A program made the position numbers and the translations under genes. A DNA stretch of 37,674 bases from Desulfobulbaceae bacterium (GTDB taxonomy: Bacteria; Desulfobacterota; Desulfobulbia; Desulfobulbales; Desulfocapsaceae): assembly GCA_008933635.1 (NCBI GenBank), contig WBUQ01000028.1:1-37674 (forward strand), written 5' to 3'. The notes beneath the pieces were generated by a model, which was given only the letters and a program-made list of their open reading frames with translations, was not told the DNA's origin and did no database searches. Positions 7,810 to 19,615 of the stretch are shown here, in pieces; within the stretch, counting starts at the first letter, position 1; each line of letters opens with the position of its first letter.

Positions 7810-8661
7810 TCAGCCCGATCCGTAGCTGTGCAGCCCGGAGAGGAAGAAGTTGACGCCATAGTAGGTGAAAATGACCGAGATCAAACCGAGAATCGCCATC
7901 CAGGCCATGGTCTTGCCCCTCCATCCCCTGGTGTAGCGCGAGTGCAGGGTGATGGCGTAGATGAACCAGGTGATCAGAGACCAGGTTTCCTTCGGATCCC
8001 AGCTCCAGTATGTCCCCCACGCCGAATTGGCCCATACCGCTCCGGTGATGATGCCGGCACTGAGCCAGATAAAACCGAACAGCATCGATTTGTAGATCAG
8101 GTCCTCGATGGTATCGGCAGCCGGGATGACGAAGGTCGAATGGTCTCCTTGTTGAGGTGTATCCGGCTTGGCGATTTTGAAGAAAAACATCAGCCCGAGT
8201 CCGGCGGCGACGGTGAAGGCCGCATAGCCGACAAAGCAGGTGATGACGTGGGCGATGAGCCAGTTTGATTGCAGGGCGGGGATCAGTGGCGTAATTTCCC
8301 TTGAGATATTTGTTGCAAACGAAGCATAGGCCATAGCCAGAAAGGCGAAGGGCAGGGCGAAAAGGCCGAGGACCCTGATCCTGAATTTCCACTCCATGAC
8401 CAGATAGAAGAGGGCGATGGTCCAGGAGAAAAAGACCACCGATTCATACATATTGGTGAGCGGGGCATGGCCGATTCCCATATCGTACGATTCGTACCAG
8501 CGCAGCCCGATTCCGGCAGTCTGGGTCAGGAAGGCGACGACGGTGGCGGCAACGGCAGTGTGATGAGCTCTGTCGGCCTTGAACACCAGGAAATAGACGA
8601 ACAGCAGTGTCGCAAACAGATAAATAAACGTTGTTATGCCAAGTAATTGAGAGCTAGTCAT
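7810..8661 (-). CDS. ccsB: Cytochrome c biogenesis protein CcsB/CcsA type (haem-handling, System II)
   Basis: This 283-residue polytopic membrane protein has about eight hydrophobic segments and the tryptophan-rich WWD haem-handling signature, WGTYWSWDPKETWSLITW, near residue 215. With ResB it exports haem and joins it to CxxCH motifs of apocytochromes on the periplasmic side. It belongs to the CcmC/CcsA superfamily; the name CcsB is used for this protein in many Desulfobacterota genomes and CcsA/ResC elsewhere. I chose the ATG nine codons inside the open frame because GGAG lies 7 bases upstream of it. resB lies about 100 bases upstream on the same strand. Confidence 0.92.
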   Translation of the reverse strand: MTSSQLLGITTFIYLFATLLFVYFLVFKADRAHHTAVAATVVAFLTQTAGIGLRWYESYDMGIGHAPLTNMYESVVFFSWTIALFYLVMEWKFRIRVLGLFALPFAFLAMAYASFATNISREITPLIPALQSNWLIAHVITCFVGYAAFTVAAGLGLMFFFKIAKPDTPQQGDHSTFVIPAADTIEDLIYKSMLFGFIWLSAGIITGAVWANSAWGTYWSWDPKETWSLITWFIYAITLHSRYTRGWRGKTMAWMAILGLISVIFTYYGVNFFLSGLHSYGSG

Positions 8662-8763
8662 GATATTCTCCGTGAAGTCCTGAGGCAAAGGGCTTTGCGA
8701 ATCTGGCAGAATGCTGGCGTTGCAGGAACGGTACAGCCTGCACGGGATGGTCGTTCAGGCGCA

Positions 8764-10086
8764 TTACCTGCCTCTCAACTGGTCCGTCAGGTTGGTAAAG
8801 GTTCTGGTGAATCCGGACTTGTTCTTGCTGCTGGCAGCGGCGCACAGGACGTTCGTTGATGCCCCGCCCTGTTCCTGTTCAAGCAGTATCCAGATCCGCT
8901 GGTGCGAGAGGAAAAACGCTATATACAGGCCTACAAGCATCAGGCAGCAGCCGAGATAGACCAGCCAGACTCCCGGATCCTTCGCAACCTGCAGGCCGGT
9001 TGCGTACATCTGTTTGGCCGAGATGGTGAAAGATCTGCCCGCCGAGGGGATCGATGTCTGCTGATTGTTATCCAGCCAGAAGGTCGATGCCGGCTGCTCC
9101 CCGTCTTTCAGCCAGATCTTCAGGCGTGTCGCCCGGTCGCCGGTACCTTCGGCATTGACGATACCGAAACGGAGCTGTTTTTCCGGCCATTCCATTTCAC
9201 GCTGGTAGGGGATGGTGAAGACCTTGCCGGTGCGGTCCGGCTCGACGACAATCGAGACGAGAAAATCCTGATAGGCCTGATAACTCGATTGATAGAAAGT
9301 TACCCCCCGGTGGGTCATCGGTTTGTTGACCTCGATTGTCTCCCTGCGGACTTCCTTACCCTGCTCTTTGACGATGAGCACTGACTGGTATTCCTTCGGC
9401 ATGCCGTTGGGATAGAAATCGACGGTGAACGCGTCGCACTCCACCTCGAACCCAAGGTCGATGGGCTCCGATGTGTCGGAGGCGAAGACCTTGTCGGTGC
9501 TGTTCTTCTCCGGCAGCATCACGGTTCCCTTGTAACCGAGAAAATTGCCGATGATCGCGCCACCGAAAATGATCAGAATCGAAACGTGGACGACATAGAC
9601 CCCAAGCCTTGACCAGGCTCCTTTTCCGGAGAAGATCAGGATACCGTTGCCAGTTTCCCGGGAGGTCGGGCGCCATCCTGCCTTTTCCAGGGCAGTAGAG
9701 AGCGCGGCGGCGTTCTGCTGAATTGGCCCGGCTGATGACCAGTTTTCACGAAAGCTCATGCCTCTGAGCCTGTCAGCGGCGACTGCCAGCTGGTCGGCGT
9801 TGATAAGCCGCCAGGCGGCTGGGAAACGGTCGATACTGCAGATAATCAGGTTGGCGGAAAGTAGCCCGAGGAGGAGCAGGAACCACCAGGAGCCGTACAT
9901 GTCCGGGATATCGAGGATCTGGAAGAACTGGGCGGTCGCGGCGCCGTAGGTCTCCACGTACCAGTTGCCGGGTTTGTTCTGGGGAATGATGGTGCCGATG
10001 ATTGAGGTCAGGGCAAGGGCGCAGAGTGTGAAGATAGCCAGTCGCACCGAGGCAAAAAAATCCCAGACTCGATTATTGTTTTTCAT
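8764..10086 (-). CDS. resB: Cytochrome c biogenesis protein ResB/Ccs1
   Basis: The 440-residue protein starts with a membrane region (VWDFFASVRLAIFTLCALALTSIIGTIIPQ, a typical ResB opening). A second helix pair follows at about 65-85, and another helix near 165-185 (GVYVVHVSILIIFGGAIIGNFLGY). Then comes a large periplasmic beta-rich domain containing KPMTHRGVTFYQSSYQ, and a last helix near 390-410. ResB binds apocytochrome and works with CcsA/CcsB in System II maturation. It is the first gene of the pair and serves cytochromes such as the neighbouring tetraheme protein. No strong Shine-Dalgarno is seen before its ATG. Confidence 0.92.
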   Translation of the reverse strand: MKNNNRVWDFFASVRLAIFTLCALALTSIIGTIIPQNKPGNWYVETYGAATAQFFQILDIPDMYGSWWFLLLLGLLSANLIICSIDRFPAAWRLINADQLAVAADRLRGMSFRENWSSAGPIQQNAAALSTALEKAGWRPTSRETGNGILIFSGKGAWSRLGVYVVHVSILIIFGGAIIGNFLGYKGTVMLPEKNSTDKVFASDTSEPIDLGFEVECDAFTVDFYPNGMPKEYQSVLIVKEQGKEVRRETIEVNKPMTHRGVTFYQSSYQAYQDFLVSIVVEPDRTGKVFTIPYQREMEWPEKQLRFGIVNAEGTGDRATRLKIWLKDGEQPASTFWLDNNQQTSIPSAGRSFTISAKQMYATGLQVAKDPGVWLVYLGCCLMLVGLYIAFFLSHQRIWILLEQEQGGASTNVLCAAASSKNKSGFTRTFTNLTDQLRGR

Positions 10087-12395: not shown

Positions 12396-13841
12396 TCAGC
12401 GTGAGGCCAGCCACTGTTCAAGCGGTTCAGGATGAATGGCGCAGCGCGTGGGAGCCGTCAGGCAGTTCCGGTTGTGTATTTCCTTCCCATGCTGAATAAC
12501 CGAGACAGGACGATCGGCCGAAACCACGATGATGATGGTCTGGGGGTGTTCGGCGGTGAATCGCAGGGCGGAATTGTACCGTGCGCCCCTGGCCCTGTCC
12601 TCGCCATCGATGCAATGCCCGTCGAGGAGGCAGGCGAAGGCGTGGAGATGGAGGTCCGGCCTCAGGTGCAGGGCTCCGTCGACCTTGGAGAGGGCGCAGG
12701 CCAGGTCCAGTTGATTGGGCAGCCGCAGATCGATCGGCGGATTGATGTCCTGACCGGATATGAAAGCCTTGTCCTTTGCGAGATCAATCACCAGGGCACA
12801 GCCGAACTTCTTGTTCTGGGCACTGTGGACGATGGCGACAATGGCCTGGAACAGGGAATCCCGGCTGCCGGCATCGAGGTCGTAATCGAGAAGGGCTTCC
12901 TCGACTTCAACCAGCCTGGCGCGATAGGTGTTGGACGTGTAGCTGCCATGGATGAAACTGCAGATCTTTTCGTTCTCGAGGGAGAGAAATCCGATTTTTC
13001 CCTGGAAATCTGCGGTTAAATGAAATTCGGGGAGGAATCCTTCCGTTATTCCGATAATGCTGGTTCCGTCAGAGATCAGCTTTCGATCCGAGTGTTCGAC
13101 GGCCTGGAGCAGTTTTCTCACGTGCTTGAAATGATTGACCTTAGGTCGTTCGTCCTTCCTGAACCGGGCAAGAAACGTGATGCCGCTGAGAAATCGCGGT
13201 TCGACAAAGAGCAGCTTGCCATGCGGCCTGACGCTTTCTTCGGGTGTTTTCGAGATCCCCAGAACGGAGTCAAGGACATGGTAGATATCGATCCGGGTAT
13301 CGAGCCCGAGTCGGAGGTTGATCATGTCGACGATATAGTCGTAGACGGCGTGGGTGGCGTATTCCCGGAGGAAACTGCCGGAAATGCCGGTATAGAGGGA
13401 GCGTTCATCGGCTATGTCGTGGGAAAAGCGCAATACGGCATGTTCGAGCCACCTCTCGGTCGGACCGATTGAGCAAACATCCGGATGGTGTTCGGTGAAC
13501 CACATCTGGTAAAAGACGGAACCGGACTTGCCGCCGCAGGAGACCCGTCCATCCAGCTGCAGGCTTGGCACCGGTTCGATCTGATTGAAGGTGTTGCGGT
13601 TGAAGATGAACTTGTCCTGCTGCCGCCAGGCGCAGCTGTCCAGGTAAATCTCCTTGAGTTTCGGTTCGTAGCCGTACAGCAGGTTCTGCGGGTCGAGAAT
13701 GAACAGATCGGCATTCGGGGCCAGGCAATAGATCACGGCAACTCGGCTCTCCCCGGAAAATCGTGAGAGGCCCTCCCGGATACCGGAGAGGGTGTCGGTG
13801 ATGCAACGGCGAATGAAGGTTTTTTCCTGGAGAATTTTCAT
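12396..13841 (-). CDS. Predicted diadenylate cyclase with large N-terminal sensor-like region (DisA_N/DAC domain)
   Basis: The C-terminal part of this 481-residue protein (about 325-455) resembles DAC domains, which join two ATP into cyclic di-AMP. Visible signatures are FGCALVIDL, the DGA motif (388-390), ACLLDG, and RGARYNSALRF (418-428), followed by IIIVVSADRPVSVIQHG. In DisA and CdaA the second motif reads RHR; here it is RYN, in a recognisable GARYNSA context. Residues 1-320 show no helix-hairpin-helix or CdaA membrane helices. They may be one of the sensor modules described next to DAC domains (the DACNx group), but I cannot name which. An extended -10 promoter lies just upstream. Nearby genes give no clue to the signal. 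Cyclase activity is a prediction. Confidence 0.75.
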   Translation of the reverse strand: MKILQEKTFIRRCITDTLSGIREGLSRFSGESRVAVIYCLAPNADLFILDPQNLLYGYEPKLKEIYLDSCAWRQQDKFIFNRNTFNQIEPVPSLQLDGRVSCGGKSGSVFYQMWFTEHHPDVCSIGPTERWLEHAVLRFSHDIADERSLYTGISGSFLREYATHAVYDYIVDMINLRLGLDTRIDIYHVLDSVLGISKTPEESVRPHGKLLFVEPRFLSGITFLARFRKDERPKVNHFKHVRKLLQAVEHSDRKLISDGTSIIGITEGFLPEFHLTADFQGKIGFLSLENEKICSFIHGSYTSNTYRARLVEVEEALLDYDLDAGSRDSLFQAIVAIVHSAQNKKFGCALVIDLAKDKAFISGQDINPPIDLRLPNQLDLACALSKVDGALHLRPDLHLHAFACLLDGHCIDGEDRARGARYNSALRFTAEHPQTIIIVVSADRPVSVIQHGKEIHNRNCLTAPTRCAIHPEPLEQWLASR

Positions 13842-14065: not shown

Positions 14066-14593
14066 CTACCACCTGCGGCGGTGGTCGTGCCGCCAGTCGG
14101 GATGACGGTCGTAGCGCCAGTCCGGATGACGGTCGTAGCGCCAGTCATTGCGGTCGCGGCAGACCGTGGTCACCACCTCCCGATAACGGCCATGATGGTC
14201 TCTTCTCTCGACGATCTGGCGGCAGACCTGATCCGGCGGATGGTGCCTCCATGGACGTGGCGGCGGAGCATAGACAATCGGTCGTGGCCGTGGTGGTGGC
14301 GGAACGTAGACAACCGGCGGCGGTGGTGGAGGGCCGTAGACGACCGTTTGGGGCGGCGGATAGGGTCGGCCGTATCCTTTGTCCATTTCGTTGCCGACCA
14401 TATAGCCAAGCATTCCGCCGACCGCCGTACCGATAAGGGTTCCTTCGGTATCCCGGCCGATTGCCTGACCAACCAGAGCGCCGCTCCCTGCGCCGAGCAG
14501 CAGACCATTGACTCCGTGGTCATGCGCCATCGCCTCACCTGTCATCGTCCCTGCCAGAAGTACCGCCGCAAGTGCCATTTTCATCGATTTCAT
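14066..14593 (-). CDS. Secreted glycine-zipper protein with Pro-rich and DWRYDRHP-repeat tail
   Basis: The 175-residue protein has a signal peptide (MKSMKMALAAVLLAGTMTGEAMA), then a glycine-zipper region (LLLGAGSGALVGQAIGRD and GTLIGTAVGGMLGYMVGNEMD) typical of membrane-associating envelope proteins. A proline-rich stretch follows, and last a His/Arg/Trp/Asp tail made of repeats of DWRYDRHP. I chose the ATG with GGAGGG 7 bases upstream, not the one 24 codons earlier. Similar glycine-zipper proteins are found in the envelope of many proteobacteria; their roles are poorly defined. It is monocistronic with no close neighbours on its strand. Confidence 0.8.
   Translation of the reverse strand: MKSMKMALAAVLLAGTMTGEAMAHDHGVNGLLLGAGSGALVGQAIGRDTEGTLIGTAVGGMLGYMVGNEMDKGYGRPYPPPQTVVYGPPPPPPVVYVPPPPRPRPIVYAPPPRPWRHHPPDQVCRQIVERRDHHGRYREVVTTVCRDRNDWRYDRHPDWRYDRHPDWRHDHRRRW
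14077..14148 (-). repeat. 24-bp tandem repeat inside the glycine-zipper gene
   Basis: Two near-identical 24-bp copies (14101-14124 and 14125-14148, sharing a 22-base core) and one degenerate copy (14077-14100) encode successive DWRYDRHP octapeptides. The unit is a multiple of three, so copy-number change would keep the frame. Confidence 0.85.
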
Positions 14594-14957
14594 CTGAAGT
14601 CCCTCCATGGTTGAAAATCTGTGGGTGGTGTTGCCTTTAGCTTTCATGTAGGCTAGAACGAGCAAGAAAAACAGAGGACATCAGGATGAGTCGGGATGCA
14701 GTCGGCCATATATCAGGCCCATGTCGGGTCGATGTCGGGTATCTGAATGTCGTGATTACAGTATGATACGGATTTTAGCAGGGGGATGGGTTCAGCCTCT
14801 TCCGCGGGAAGGGAGTATACGGAAAATCCCGATTCGGGGCGAATGCGGCGGGGCGGGGATGGAAGAAATTCTCCTTGCCTTGTCCGAGAGCCTGGTCTAG
14901 TTTGTACTGCTCCGCAACGCGCGGGGATGTTGCGGTTGCTCCGCCATGGGAAAAACG
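14594..14957. other. Divergent intergenic region (364 bases)
   Basis: This space separates the glycine-zipper gene (-) and the DUF523 gene (+). It holds a possible plus-strand -10 (TATGAT, 14762-14767) without a good -35, and the directly repeated ATGTCGGGT elements annotated separately. I see no credible small gene or RNA. Confidence 0.5.
14721..14752 (+). repeat. Direct repeats of ATGTCG(GGT), possible operator
   Basis: ATGTCGGGT occurs at 14721-14729 and 14732-14740, 11 bases apart (one helical turn), and the core ATGTCG recurs at 14747-14752. The last copy is just upstream of the TATGAT element. Such phased direct repeats can bind a regulator, but no candidate is adjacent. Confidence 0.35.
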
Positions 14958-16474: not shown

Positions 16475-17380
16475 TCAGGTCCTTGTCGCAACCCCGAGGA
16501 TCTTTCCTGCTCCCGTGCTGAGTTGCTCGGTAAAACCCTCGAGCAGTTCGGAGCGGAGATTCCAGCAATGCCAGAAAAGCGGCACCTCCAGCCGGAATCC
16601 CGGGGCGAGGTCGATCAATTCCCCGGCTGCAAGGAGCCGGTTCGTCTGCAGTCGCGGGACGAGCCCGTAACAGGAGCCGGTGCTGATGAAATCGACAAAC
16701 GACTCCGACGAGGGGACGAAGAATGTCGGGGCATCCGGCGGAGGGGTGGTGCCGAACAGCAGGCGGAACACCTGCTCGTTGAGGCCGTCCTGGCGGTTGA
16801 AGCGGATGATCGGCGCCCGCTCCGCCGCAGCGAGGCAGAAACCCGCCGGAAACCAGGCGCTGGAAAAGGCGGGTGAAGAGCAGAGGATATACTCCATCAC
16901 CCCGAGGCCGATCCGCCGGCAGCCCTGGAGGGGCTTGTCGCGGTTGGTTACGCAGCCCAGGACCTTCCCCTCCTGGAGCAGTCGGTGGGTCCTGTCCTGA
17001 TCGTCGACATGGAGGTCGAGGACGACCTTGCGGCAACTCAGAAATGGCCGGACGGCCGGCAGAAACCAGGTGGCGAGGCTGTCGGCATTCACTCCGAGGG
17101 CAAGCGAGGTGGACCGGCCGGAGGTGGGCGGTGCTGAAAGGGACAGCAGGTCTTCTTCCAGGTGCCTCACCTGGCTGAAATGACGCAGCAGGGCTATCCC
17201 CGCTTCGGTCGGCCTGGGCGGGCTTGTCCGCTGCACCAGGATGCGTCCGCAATACCCTTCGAGCAACCTGATCCGCTGTGAAACGGCGGACTGGGTTATA
17301 TGCAGCCGCTGGGCCGCCCTGTCGAAACCCTTTTCCTCGATGACGGCAGCGAACGCCTCGACCAGCTTATAGTCAAGCAT
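16475..17380 (-). CDS. argP: LysR-type regulator of the ArgP/LysG group
   Basis: The 301-residue protein aligns from memory with E. coli ArgP throughout. Shared features are the N-terminal helix-turn-helix (GFDRAAQRLHITQSAVSQRIRLLE), RTSPPRPTEAG, LALGVNADSLATWFLPA, and the C-terminal SGELIDL-like AAGELIDLAPGF. ArgP/LysG senses lysine and arginine and activates the divergent exporter gene (argO or lysE). Exactly that partner is divergently transcribed 92 bases away. Cytoplasmic DNA-binding protein, full length. The ATG is directly next to an inverted repeat likely to be its own binding site, which would also allow autoregulation. Confidence 0.93.
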   Translation of the reverse strand: MLDYKLVEAFAAVIEEKGFDRAAQRLHITQSAVSQRIRLLEGYCGRILVQRTSPPRPTEAGIALLRHFSQVRHLEEDLLSLSAPPTSGRSTSLALGVNADSLATWFLPAVRPFLSCRKVVLDLHVDDQDRTHRLLQEGKVLGCVTNRDKPLQGCRRIGLGVMEYILCSSPAFSSAWFPAGFCLAAAERAPIIRFNRQDGLNEQVFRLLFGTTPPPDAPTFFVPSSESFVDFISTGSCYGLVPRLQTNRLLAAGELIDLAPGFRLEVPLFWHCWNLRSELLEGFTEQLSTGAGKILGVATRT

Positions 17381-17382
17381 CT

Positions 17383-17397
17383 ATTAGATCAGCTAAT
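17383..17397. promoter_or_regulatory. LysR-type operator between argP and argO
   Basis: ATTAG-ATCAG-CTAAT is a perfect 5-bp inverted repeat with the T-N11-A form of LysR-family sites. Its centre lies about 60 bases upstream of the start expected from the argO -10, the usual position for activation. Confidence 0.7.
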
Positions 17398-17437
17398 GAA
17401 TTATTAAATAGTTTCATTTTACTTTATTGGTGCTGTG

Positions 17438-17443
17438 TACAAT
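17438..17443 (+). promoter_or_regulatory. -10 element of the argO/lysE promoter
   Basis: TACAAT (5 of 6) lies 30 bases before the exporter ATG. The -35 position is poor (CATTTT with 17-base spacing), as expected for a promoter that depends on a LysR-type activator. Confidence 0.55.
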
Positions 17444-17472
17444 ATTCCCCGGATGCAAGCAAGGAGGAGTTG

Positions 17473-18075
17473 ATGACCTTTCCATTCATCCAGGGAATGG
17501 CGGTCGGAGGTGGGCTGATCGTCGCCATCGGCGCGCAGAATGCGTTTGTTCTTTCCCAGGGGATACGACGGCAGCACCATTGGTTGGTCGCTGCCATCTG
17601 CTTTGTCTGCGATGCAGTTCTGGTAGGTGTTGGAGTGGCAGGTGTCGGCAGGGCGGTTGCCGCCAGTCCGATGTTGCAGGCAGCAGCTGCCTGGGGCGGG
17701 GCTATCTTCCTCTTTGCCTATGGTGCCAGGGCCCTGAGGCGCGCGATGATGTCAGACTCCCTGCAGGCCGGAGGGAGAAGGGTCTCTTCGGTCAAAGAGG
17801 CAGTCCTCGCCACCCTGGCCGTCACCCTGTTCAATCCGCACGTCTATCTCGATACAGTGGTGCTGCTCGGCAGCATCGCCAGTCAGTTTCAGGACGGGCA
17901 GCGCCTGGCATTTGCCACCGGCGCCTGCTCCGCATCGTTTCTCTGGTTTTTTTCCCTCAGTCTGGGCGGGGAGCTGCTGGCGCCGATCTTTGCCCGTCCG
18001 GGTTCCTGGAAGGTGCTCGATCTCTTCGTCTGCGGCTCGATGTGGCTGGTCGCCTTCAGGCTTCTGCCGGTCTAG
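17473..18075 (+). CDS. argO: LysE/ArgO-family basic amino acid exporter
   Basis: This 200-residue inner-membrane protein has about six helices. It carries the family's first-helix motif GGGLIVAIGAQNAFVLSQG and the central FNPHVYLDTVVLLGSIA. ArgO exports arginine (and canavanine) and LysE exports lysine and arginine. The match to both is close, so the symbol reflects pairing with ArgP rather than proven substrate. AAGGAGGAGTTG precedes the ATG. It is divergent from its presumed regulator, with the shared operator between. Confidence 0.92.
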   Translation: MTFPFIQGMAVGGGLIVAIGAQNAFVLSQGIRRQHHWLVAAICFVCDAVLVGVGVAGVGRAVAASPMLQAAAAWGGAIFLFAYGARALRRAMMSDSLQAGGRRVSSVKEAVLATLAVTLFNPHVYLDTVVLLGSIASQFQDGQRLAFATGACSASFLWFFSLSLGGELLAPIFARPGSWKVLDLFVCGSMWLVAFRLLPV

Positions 18076-18134: not shown

Positions 18135-18599
18135 TCAGGGGAGGATTGTCGTCTCGGTATAGAGTCCCCTGCCGGGATAACGATACCGCAGGGAGGCCTG
18201 GATGTCTGAAGCCCGTACGGGCCAGTTGAACTCTATTGCGATGATGTGGGATCCTGGCTGCAGGTTCTTGAATATCCATTTCATCTTGCCAAGCTTGCTG
18301 CTGTATTTCTGTGGCATGGGGTTTGCGCTGACGATTTCGTGGCCTGGCGGGAAATACTGTTCGATGATCACGCTGGCTGGCGGTGGATAAATGACGCGGT
18401 ACTCGAGGATGACTGTGCGGCCGAAGGCCGAGAGGTATTTGCCGCTGACGGGTTCAACCGCAAGGGCGGCGCGGGGCAGGATTGAGGGGGCCAGGAAGAC
18501 AAGCAAAACGGCCAGCAGGCGGAGGTGCGCAACCGTCGCGCTGGAGGCTGCCGCAGCAGCTGTTCCGGTGATATGTCGGCAGCGTAATTCCGGTGTCAT
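18135..18599 (-). CDS. Secreted Ig-like-fold protein of unknown function
   Basis: The 154-residue protein has a hydrophobic export segment at about 25-47 (LRLLAVLLVFLAPSILPRAALA) and then a beta-rich domain. EYRVIYPPPASVIIEQYFPPGHEIVSANP followed by GKMKWIFKNLQPGSHIIAIEFNWP resembles the second half of the DUF11-like or PKD-like repeats found in bacterial surface proteins. Its ATG overlaps the stop of the upstream membrane HTH gene (ATGA), so the two are translationally coupled. The partner's ectodomain has the same kind of fold, which suggests a shared ligand or direct contact. I cannot assign a function. Confidence 0.7.
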   Translation of the reverse strand: MTPELRCRHITGTAAAAASSATVAHLRLLAVLLVFLAPSILPRAALAVEPVSGKYLSAFGRTVILEYRVIYPPPASVIIEQYFPPGHEIVSANPMPQKYSSKLGKMKWIFKNLQPGSHIIAIEFNWPVRASDIQASLRYRYPGRGLYTETTILP

Positions 18600-19543
18600 G
18601 GCAGGATTTCGTACGTCGATTTCTTCTCGTTCCAGCGGTAGCCGGAACCCTGCCAGATCTTTTCGATCCTGGCGATGTCGATCCCGAGTTTTTCAGAGCC
18701 GCTGTACTGGTCATGGACGACGAGCATTTCCTTGTCGCTCAGGATCCCGTCGGCATTGGCATCGGCCCAGTGATGGGTGCCGGTGGAGATGGTATCGTTG
18801 CCGACGACGGCCCTGGCCTTCTCCGAGTCCTGGCTGACGGCAATATCACCGGAGAAACGGAAGGCCTCTCCTGGCGCTCCCTGGAGGGTGGCGGTATAGA
18901 TAAATCTGGTTGGTCCGTTAATTTTTTCAAGCCATTTCAATTCCTTGTCAGATTGCTGTCCCTTCTCTGCCGGTGCCGAGAGGGGGGGCGCGGTCTTTTT
19001 AAGTTCCGCCTGAGCCGGCAGGATCTCCCGCAGGATCAGGGCGACAGGATGAGCCGGGCTTGCCGTCACTTCGATGATGACGGGGAAGGGCTGACCGGGA
19101 AGGCAATGTTTGGGCAGGATGCGCCGGGCTGTGATCACCTGGGCTTCAGGCTGAAGGAGAAAGAACCACGTCGCGAGGCCTGCTGCCGCCAGGCCGAGCA
19201 AGATTCCGAAAACAAGCGGTATCGGGTTCTTCGCCGGTCGGATGCCGAAGGATTCGCCGGTTTCCTGGCGCTGCTCATCCGCGCCGGTCTCCGTCACATG
19301 GTTTTCCTGCTGCTCCAGGATTTCTTCCAGCGGGACTTCGAGGGCTTCGGCCAGTTTGACGCAGTTCTCCTTTTTGATCGAAGGATACCGTTTGTTTTCC
19401 CAGCGGGAAATCGTGTCGGTCGTAACCTGGACTGCTGTGGCGACGTAGAGTTGGGTCAGGCCCTTCTGTTCCCGCAGGCGCCTGACTCGCGCTCCATCGA
19501 TTTTCACCATCTGGATGCCGCCGGGCAGCATTTCACCTGTCAT
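18596..19543 (-). CDS. Membrane-anchored XRE-family HTH protein with Ig-like and EF-hand/dockerin-like ectodomain
   Basis: Domains in order for this 315-residue protein: an XRE/Cro-type helix-turn-helix at 17-75 (REQKGLTQLYVATAVQVTTD, SRWENKRYPS); a polar linker; one transmembrane helix at 107-130; a beta-rich Ig-like region at 135-237 (ILPKHCLPGQPFPVIIEVTASP, FSGDIAVSQD); and a canonical 12-residue EF-hand loop at 261-272 (DANADGILSDKE). After the EF hand comes IEKIWQGSGYRWN, a dockerin-like tail seen in repeat-bearing surface proteins. The layout recalls RodZ (HTH, one helix, periplasmic domain), but the ectodomain is different. A one-component transmembrane regulator is likely. Ca2+ sensing is inferred from the loop only. 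It has its own promoter, and the next gene is coupled through ATGA. Confidence 0.8.
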   Translation of the reverse strand: MTGEMLPGGIQMVKIDGARVRRLREQKGLTQLYVATAVQVTTDTISRWENKRYPSIKKENCVKLAEALEVPLEEILEQQENHVTETGADEQRQETGESFGIRPAKNPIPLVFGILLGLAAAGLATWFFLLQPEAQVITARRILPKHCLPGQPFPVIIEVTASPAHPVALILREILPAQAELKKTAPPLSAPAEKGQQSDKELKWLEKINGPTRFIYTATLQGAPGEAFRFSGDIAVSQDSEKARAVVGNDTISTGTHHWADANADGILSDKEMLVVHDQYSGSEKLGIDIARIEKIWQGSGYRWNEKKSTYEILP

Positions 19544-19587
19544 AGCATTCGTTGATTTTCAGATATGGATCTTCGGCCCCCGCAGCG

Positions 19588-19615
19588 AATATACCAAGTT
19601 CGGGTACGCCATCAA
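19588..19615 (-). promoter_or_regulatory. Promoter for the membrane HTH operon
   Basis: On the minus strand TTGATG (19610-19615), a 16-base spacer and TATATT (19588-19593) are seen. The TGG before the -10 gives an extended -10. The element is about 45 bases before the start codon. Confidence 0.6.

Follow-up and report, generated by a model that had tools for sequence, protein, structure and literature searches.

A two-gene unit from a Desulfobulbaceae bacterium probably encodes a membrane-anchored one-component transcription regulator (TTR), hereafter called A, and an exported co-component, hereafter called B, which would govern an envelope regulon through arrays of helically phased DNA sites. 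The unit was analysed within the window, that is, the whole stretch of 37,674 nucleotides (assembly GCA_008933635.1, contig WBUQ01000028.1) to which all coordinates refer. Read in this way, the A family would combine, in compact form, a regulator and its partner with candidates for both the operator and the regulon.

Architecture and predicted fold of A

The preliminary description had proposed a two-gene unit in which A joins an HTH domain, a membrane helix, an ectodomain and an EF-hand; both open reading frames and this architecture were confirmed on the minus strand. Gene A (18596..19543, minus strand) encodes 315 amino acids, in which an XRE-type HTH domain, one transmembrane helix, an Ig-like ectodomain and an EF-hand loop were delineated by Pfam, AlphaFold and hydropathy. 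An extended -10-like sequence, TTGGTATATTC (19587..19597, minus strand), is a possible promoter of A-B, and TTGGTATA recurred 5' of A in 14 of 79 loci against 0.5 expected.

The HTH domain spans residues 17-77 (19313..19495, minus strand). Pfam HTH_3 matched residues 20-75 with an E value of 1.6e-13 and 50.9 bits against a cut-off of 23, and the modelled residues 14-80 were superposed by VIA-align on P22 c2 (3jxb; Z 10.6, rmsd 1.8, 64 aligned) and on DNA-bound SinR (3zkc; Z 10.5, rmsd 1.5, 63 aligned). A profile of full-length A searched against solved structures likewise retrieved XRE proteins such as PezA, P22 C2 and CylR2, and a phmmer search of the same structures with part of the HTH returned none at 1e-5. 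The HTH residues, including the recognition segment, are near-invariant across relatives. The transmembrane helix was assigned by hydropathy to residues 110-128 (19160..19216, minus strand) and is modelled by AlphaFold as a helix of residues 109-130. Exactly one hydrophobic helix was found by hydropathy in 58 of 59 full-length relatives, and two in the other.

AlphaFold models were computed from five sequences for A and four for B, with mean pLDDT values of 69.5 and 79.2, respectively. The ectodomain of A is predicted to lie in the periplasm and to form an Ig-like beta-sandwich at about residues 134-256 (18776..19144, minus strand), with VIA-align Z scores of about 10 to complement C3 (8cem; Z 10.7, rmsd 2.2, 104 aligned), the BcpA pilin (3kpt; Z 10.7, rmsd 2.6, 113 aligned) and a cohesin (2vo8; Z 10.1, rmsd 2.9, 116 aligned). 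For B, the best among the VIA-align matches listed were mu-homology domains and other beta-sandwiches with Z scores of 9-10. Foldseek also gave beta-sandwich proteins for both, those for B only at E values above 0.001. Lipocalin structures were absent among the VIA-align matches listed for A or B, which excludes nothing. The Ig-like fold of both proteins is thus predicted from AlphaFold models together with structure comparison, and a common fold alone shows no function for either ectodomain. The ectodomain had earlier been called DUF11/PKD-like; an Ig-like fold is retained from this, as a model, and the family label itself was not supported by Pfam, whose Ig, DUF11 and PKD families gave no match in A or B of the window at E values up to 1. 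DUF11 matched weakly in two of the 43 ectodomains of A and in three of the 50 B proteins searched.

The EF-hand loop DANADGILSDKE occupies residues 261-272 of A (18728..18763, minus strand). It is followed by a helix in the AlphaFold model, in which the EF-hand region is poorly modelled (pLDDT near 40). The loop had been described as canonical, and the motif D-x-[DNS]-x-[DNS]-x6-E was indeed present in all 79 A proteins tested, a count that leaves out five of the 84 loci (L047, L050, L057, L078 and L083) in which A is cut at a contig end or the HTH pattern was not matched. The Pfam EF-hand model had no match in A of the window; of 43 members, nine had a weak EF-hand_5 match, the best at E 0.012. 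Against solved structures, a profile of the ectodomain matched EF-hand-type and other entries weakly, with E values no better than 0.026. The HTH and the W-A-D region of the EF-hand loop were the most conserved parts of A, and the invariance of the loop (79/79) is the strongest sign that a metal site matters in A.

RodZ has an N-terminal HTH, one transmembrane helix and an extracytoplasmic beta domain, an arrangement that A shares. On this analogy A could be a structural tether between DNA and membrane, or an envelope scaffold, whose HTH no longer regulates. The single membrane helix with its linker, as is familiar from RodZ, would suit such a role, as would the genes found near A in the family of the window, namely FtsEX-like genes (recognized by eye), an EnvC-like M23 peptidase and a CtpA-like protease. 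However, A scored 12.6 with the NCBIfam RodZ model against a cut-off of 208, and 12.6 with Pfam HTH_25 against 24.6, and was rejected as a RodZ; its HTH belongs with HTH_3 and keeps near-invariant recognition residues, and the arrays described below are co-conserved with A. We regard the tether as very improbable. A differs from RodZ also in its EF-hand and operator-like arrays, and the analysis supports the preliminary description in setting the membrane one-component build apart from RodZ: the HTH aligns with P22 c2 and SinR, its residues are near-invariant, and A falls far below the cut-off of the RodZ model. A membrane-held regulator remains the preferred reading of A.

Gene B and its linkage to A

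Gene B (18135..18599, minus strand) encodes a 154-residue exported Ig-like protein and follows A with an ATGA stop-start overlap (18596..18599, minus strand). Its open reading frame has an N-terminal hydrophobic segment (residues 23-41 by hydropathy); the predicted beta-sandwich begins near residue 46. The ectodomain of A was matched by a profile of B as well, and profile-profile comparison aligned B with the Ig domain of A over 85 columns (97.4% probability, E 1.1e-11). By these comparisons B is a homologue of the Ig domain of A that lacks the HTH and the EF-hand, in agreement with the earlier claim that A is coupled by ATGA overlap to a secreted partner of similar fold.

At 58 of 84 loci, the window and 57 others, B follows A on the same strand. 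It is missing in the other 26, all of which have at least 1.5 kb of downstream sequence. Among the 58 loci with B, the gap between the genes has a median of 16 bp (range -83 to 465), and an NTGA overlap occurs in 16. Fifty genomes were searched with the B profile: 25 with A and no adjoining B, 24 of the 34 scored as lacking A, and the window's own. B was found only in the window's own genome, the other 16 matches being A itself, and none of the 24 genomes without A had B. Since B occurs only beside A and A often occurs without B, B implies A, and not the reverse, as far as the search extends. The expectation that the two genes are always paired does not hold, and conservation of the partner, on which the preliminary description had also staked its proposal, is kept at the 58 loci and lost at the 26.

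Several other genes were noted around A-B. A LysR regulator and a LysE-type exporter (16475-18075; Pfam), presumably resembling ArgP/ArgO, lie between B and a glycine-zipper gene. A diadenylate cyclase-type protein (12396-13841, minus strand; Pfam DACND, DACNH and DAC) has counterparts near A-B, the gene being found there in 21 loci. Cytochrome c assembly genes for ResB and CcsA (7810-10086, minus strand; Pfam) are also present in the window; ResB is near A in 14 further loci, and a class III-like cytochrome is next in three loci.

Distribution among relatives

A search with the A ectodomain matched 63 of 97 related genomes, its own included, with one match each. The remaining 34 form the set without A, and several of these assemblies are incomplete. 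A profile search matched 37 of 395 genomes of the phylum, one of which (G469; E 9e-4, 46 residues) is doubtful and is not counted as a family member. On a quick look, 29 loci from the phylum (L098-L126) mostly showed the same HTH and transmembrane build; the HTH pattern was unmatched in four, two at contig ends (L104, L125) and two with residue variants (L099, L120), and no A frame was seen at L117, L118 and L126 in this look. With wider flanks, A with its HTH was found at all of 20 places in the phylum, including the genomes of L118 and L126 and not that of L117. The closest named A loci belong to Desulfobulbus sp. Tol-SR and to Desulfoprunum benzoelyticum, a member of the Desulfobulbales.

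Phased GAYRTC sites upstream of A

Of 79 loci, 58 have the word GACATC or its complement GATGTC within 300 bp 5' of A, where 11.5 would be expected from shuffles, and 21 lack it there. At least one in-phase pair of GAYRTC sites lies upstream of A in 39 of the 79. Of GAYRTC pairs separated by 8-46 bp, 72 were in phase and 3 out of phase, where distances of 10-12, 20-23, 31-34 and 42-45 bp, or 38% of all distances, count as in phase. Upstream of control genes in the same loci the word was found for Era in 1 of 26, RNase II in 2 of 25, CtpA in 0 of 16, ResB in 3 of 15 and the DAC cyclase in 3 of 23. Era and CtpA were named by eye and the other clusters by Pfam match, and upstream regions were set by longest-ORF starts and may be shifted. 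The comparison of 58/79 with the pooled controls (6/82; Era, RNase II, CtpA and ResB, with DAC left out) gave a Fisher p of 4e-19, a value uncorrected for kinship, which inflates all p-values given here. In 0.93 Mb of sequence, 14 chains of at least three sites lay upstream of A and three elsewhere; each of these three is found downstream of B, directly before a glycine-zipper gene.

Wider patterns were also searched. A loose pattern, TCGG-gap-GAYRTCGG, was dropped because each of the 20 genomes searched, whether it carried A or not, had many matches to it. A stricter array pattern matched 26 places in 20 of the 97 genomes. Nine loci from this and a further search were inspected; two look like promoter arrays, and most of the others lie inside open reading frames. 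One of the two (L185, G092, at about 1450-1540) is upstream of a large exported protein, which looks like a FecR-domain protein. The other (L195, G040, at about 1500-1540) is a phased array; some 80 bp downstream of it begins a minus-strand gene for a small exported protein, a possible target.

The candidate regulon

In the window, the candidate operator is an array of helically phased sites delineated by site patterns, CCCGACATCGACCCGACATG ... CCTGATGTCCTCT (14673..14739, minus strand). The start codon of an exported glycine-zipper protein (14066..14593, minus strand; Pfam Gly-zipper_Omp, E 1.5e-9), a predicted target, follows 79 bp after it. An array is likewise present at the glycine-zipper gene of a related genome (G001), and the word is found upstream of the glycine-zipper gene near A in 14 of 17 loci. 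A glycine-zipper gene of another family, on a contig other than that of A (L276, G074), carries an array as well, and the same pattern search found arrays at further promoters.

Phased arrays precede the glycine-zipper gene at 10 of 17 loci with A and at 1 of 29 homologues in genomes scored as lacking A, a control that is weak because most of these homologues look by eye like lipoprotein-type paralogues. Loose GAYRTC words occurred upstream of 9 of the 29, in phase in one. Two orthologue-like loci from this set have array-like sites. The one with the phased array (L211) begins at the end of a contig, at the position where A-B should lie; at the other (L236) a short open reading frame with the HTH of A lies upstream, so its genome does not truly lack A.

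Another regulator might bind the phased arrays, in which case A-B would merely belong to the regulon and A would have other targets. A is tied to the arrays by position and co-occurrence alone, and neither the window nor its genus has an array upstream of A, as this alternative would allow. Against it stand the arrays that accompany A in several phylum families with little else in common in their neighbourhoods, and the contrast at the glycine-zipper genes, where the single exception lies at a contig end. We consider a different array-binding protein quite unlikely, and A remains the favoured candidate for that role.

A spaced element, GACATGG-N36-GATGTCCNCT, had 11 exact matches in the 97 relatives: two each in the window's own genome, G001 and G004, three in G003, and one each in G017 and G029. 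Exact matches were thus present in 6 of 63 genomes with A and 0 of 34 without (Fisher 0.088), so that the genome-level link with A is not significant alone. With two mismatches allowed, the element was found in 66 of the 97 genomes, those without A included, largely by chance. A tandem pattern with at most one mismatch occurred in G000, G001, G003, G004, G029 and G059, all with A, and with two mismatches once each in four genomes without A (G053, G057, G063 and G070).

At 13 of 17 places with the spaced element, a readable gene for an exported protein or a cytochrome comes next; the other four (L319, L321, L322 and L324) have no clear following gene. Grouped by eye, and with signal peptides also judged by eye, the candidate targets are glycine-zipper proteins or their relatives (the window, L315, L317 and L318), small exported proteins (L272, L316, L320, L323 and L325) and Cys-rich exported proteins (L271, L273 and L278). 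Neither of the two small exported proteins tested (L316, L323) had a Pfam match, nor did the one Cys-rich protein tested, from the window's own genome (L278). In G064 (L326) the element lies at a class III cytochrome gene divergent from A.

Genes with at least two CxxCH motifs are divergent from A in 19 of the 78 loci that have at least 1.2 kb of upstream sequence, the window not among them, and number 10 among the remaining open reading frames (29 of 902 in all). Both of the divergent genes tested encode class III cytochromes. Among the 18 loci tabulated, 17 had strict GAYRTC words in the gap between A and the divergent gene; in the remaining one (L062, G064) there is a related word only, together with the spaced element at two mismatches. 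No phased array was found at cytochrome genes further downstream in three members of the family, and therefore not all cytochromes are targets.

Proposed function

In the model that we favour, A would reside in the inner membrane with its HTH in the cytoplasm and its Ig-like domain and EF-hand outside, in the periplasm. The XRE HTH would bind GAYRTC arrays; as the sites are spaced by whole helical turns, several membrane-held A molecules could share one face of the DNA near a promoter. A would most likely activate the genes behind the arrays: those for small exported proteins, the divergent multiheme cytochrome c gene in other families and, in many relatives, its own gene. The ectodomain may sense a condition of the periplasm and use a metal ligand, in the simplest case Ca2+, for structure or for sensing, and its state would be set by the metal and another periplasmic signal. 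B, an Ig-like relative without an EF-hand, would bind or compete at the ectodomain of A.

The same parts could work in the opposite sense, with A mainly a repressor that leaves the array on binding a ligand or metal and B a decoy that damps the response. XRE proteins are often repressors, and a homologue of the Ig domain of A without an EF-hand would fit a decoy. By eye, though, the element appears to stop short of the likely promoter on its upstream side and not to cover it, and we judge repression unlikely. Activation by A thus remains the preferred sense of the model.

A broader version, which we put forward tentatively and hold to be somewhat doubtful, is that A is a widespread Ca2+-dependent regulator of the phylum whose Ig sensor would be tuned by a free-standing relative. 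It would dock promoters at the membrane by means of phased arrays, and the regulon thereby linked to the state of the envelope would comprise glycine-zipper proteins, class III cytochromes and exported proteins rich in Cys. From arrays with their sites on one DNA face, direct predictions follow as to how membrane-bound regulators should cluster. The signal input could be probed with simple mutants of the invariant EF-hand loop and the related Ig partner.

Comparison with known systems

How membrane-held transcription factors work is described as poorly understood (PMC10269533). TTRs, which like A combine a DNA-binding domain and a transmembrane region in one protein, are widespread, with BcrR, CadC and ToxR as examples (PMC10269533, PMC3968067). 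BcrR is described as a one-component transmembrane regulator with no obvious extracellular domain (PMC3968067), whereas A has a single membrane helix and an Ig-like/EF-hand ectodomain. HigX of Caulobacter (PMC13384398) is a LytTR membrane transcription factor that binds envelope-gene promoters and is ancestral in its clade; it thus resembles A, as read here, in serving envelope genes, and differs in its four transmembrane helices, its LytTR domain and the lack of an apparent periplasmic domain.

Parallels in gene order are VtrA/VtrC and ToxR/ToxS, in which a transmembrane HTH gene is followed by an often-overlapping gene for a periplasmic partner (PMC9214523). In VtrA/VtrC, as in A-B, the gene adjoining that of the regulator on its downstream side encodes a periplasmic partner that is either exported or tethered to the membrane. 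The VtrA/VtrC partner is lipocalin-like, unlike the sensor of its regulator (PMC9214523), whereas B and the sensor of A belong to one Ig-like family. The HTH of ToxR/VtrA-type regulators is of the OmpR type (PMC5693285); A has no OmpR/CadC-type winged HTH and carries HTH_3 (XRE) instead. These systems also belong to a phylum other than that of A-B.

The preliminary description knew of no described example. This holds for the particular build, since no XRE, Ig and EF-hand regulator with an Ig partner was found in the open-licence literature, although this says little about whether one has been published elsewhere; it does not hold for the kind, since TTRs and overlapping co-component pairs are known (PMC10269533, PMC9214523). 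A-B is best placed with the TTR/co-component type, and what would be new is the combination of an XRE HTH, an Ig-like domain, an EF-hand and an Ig-like partner.
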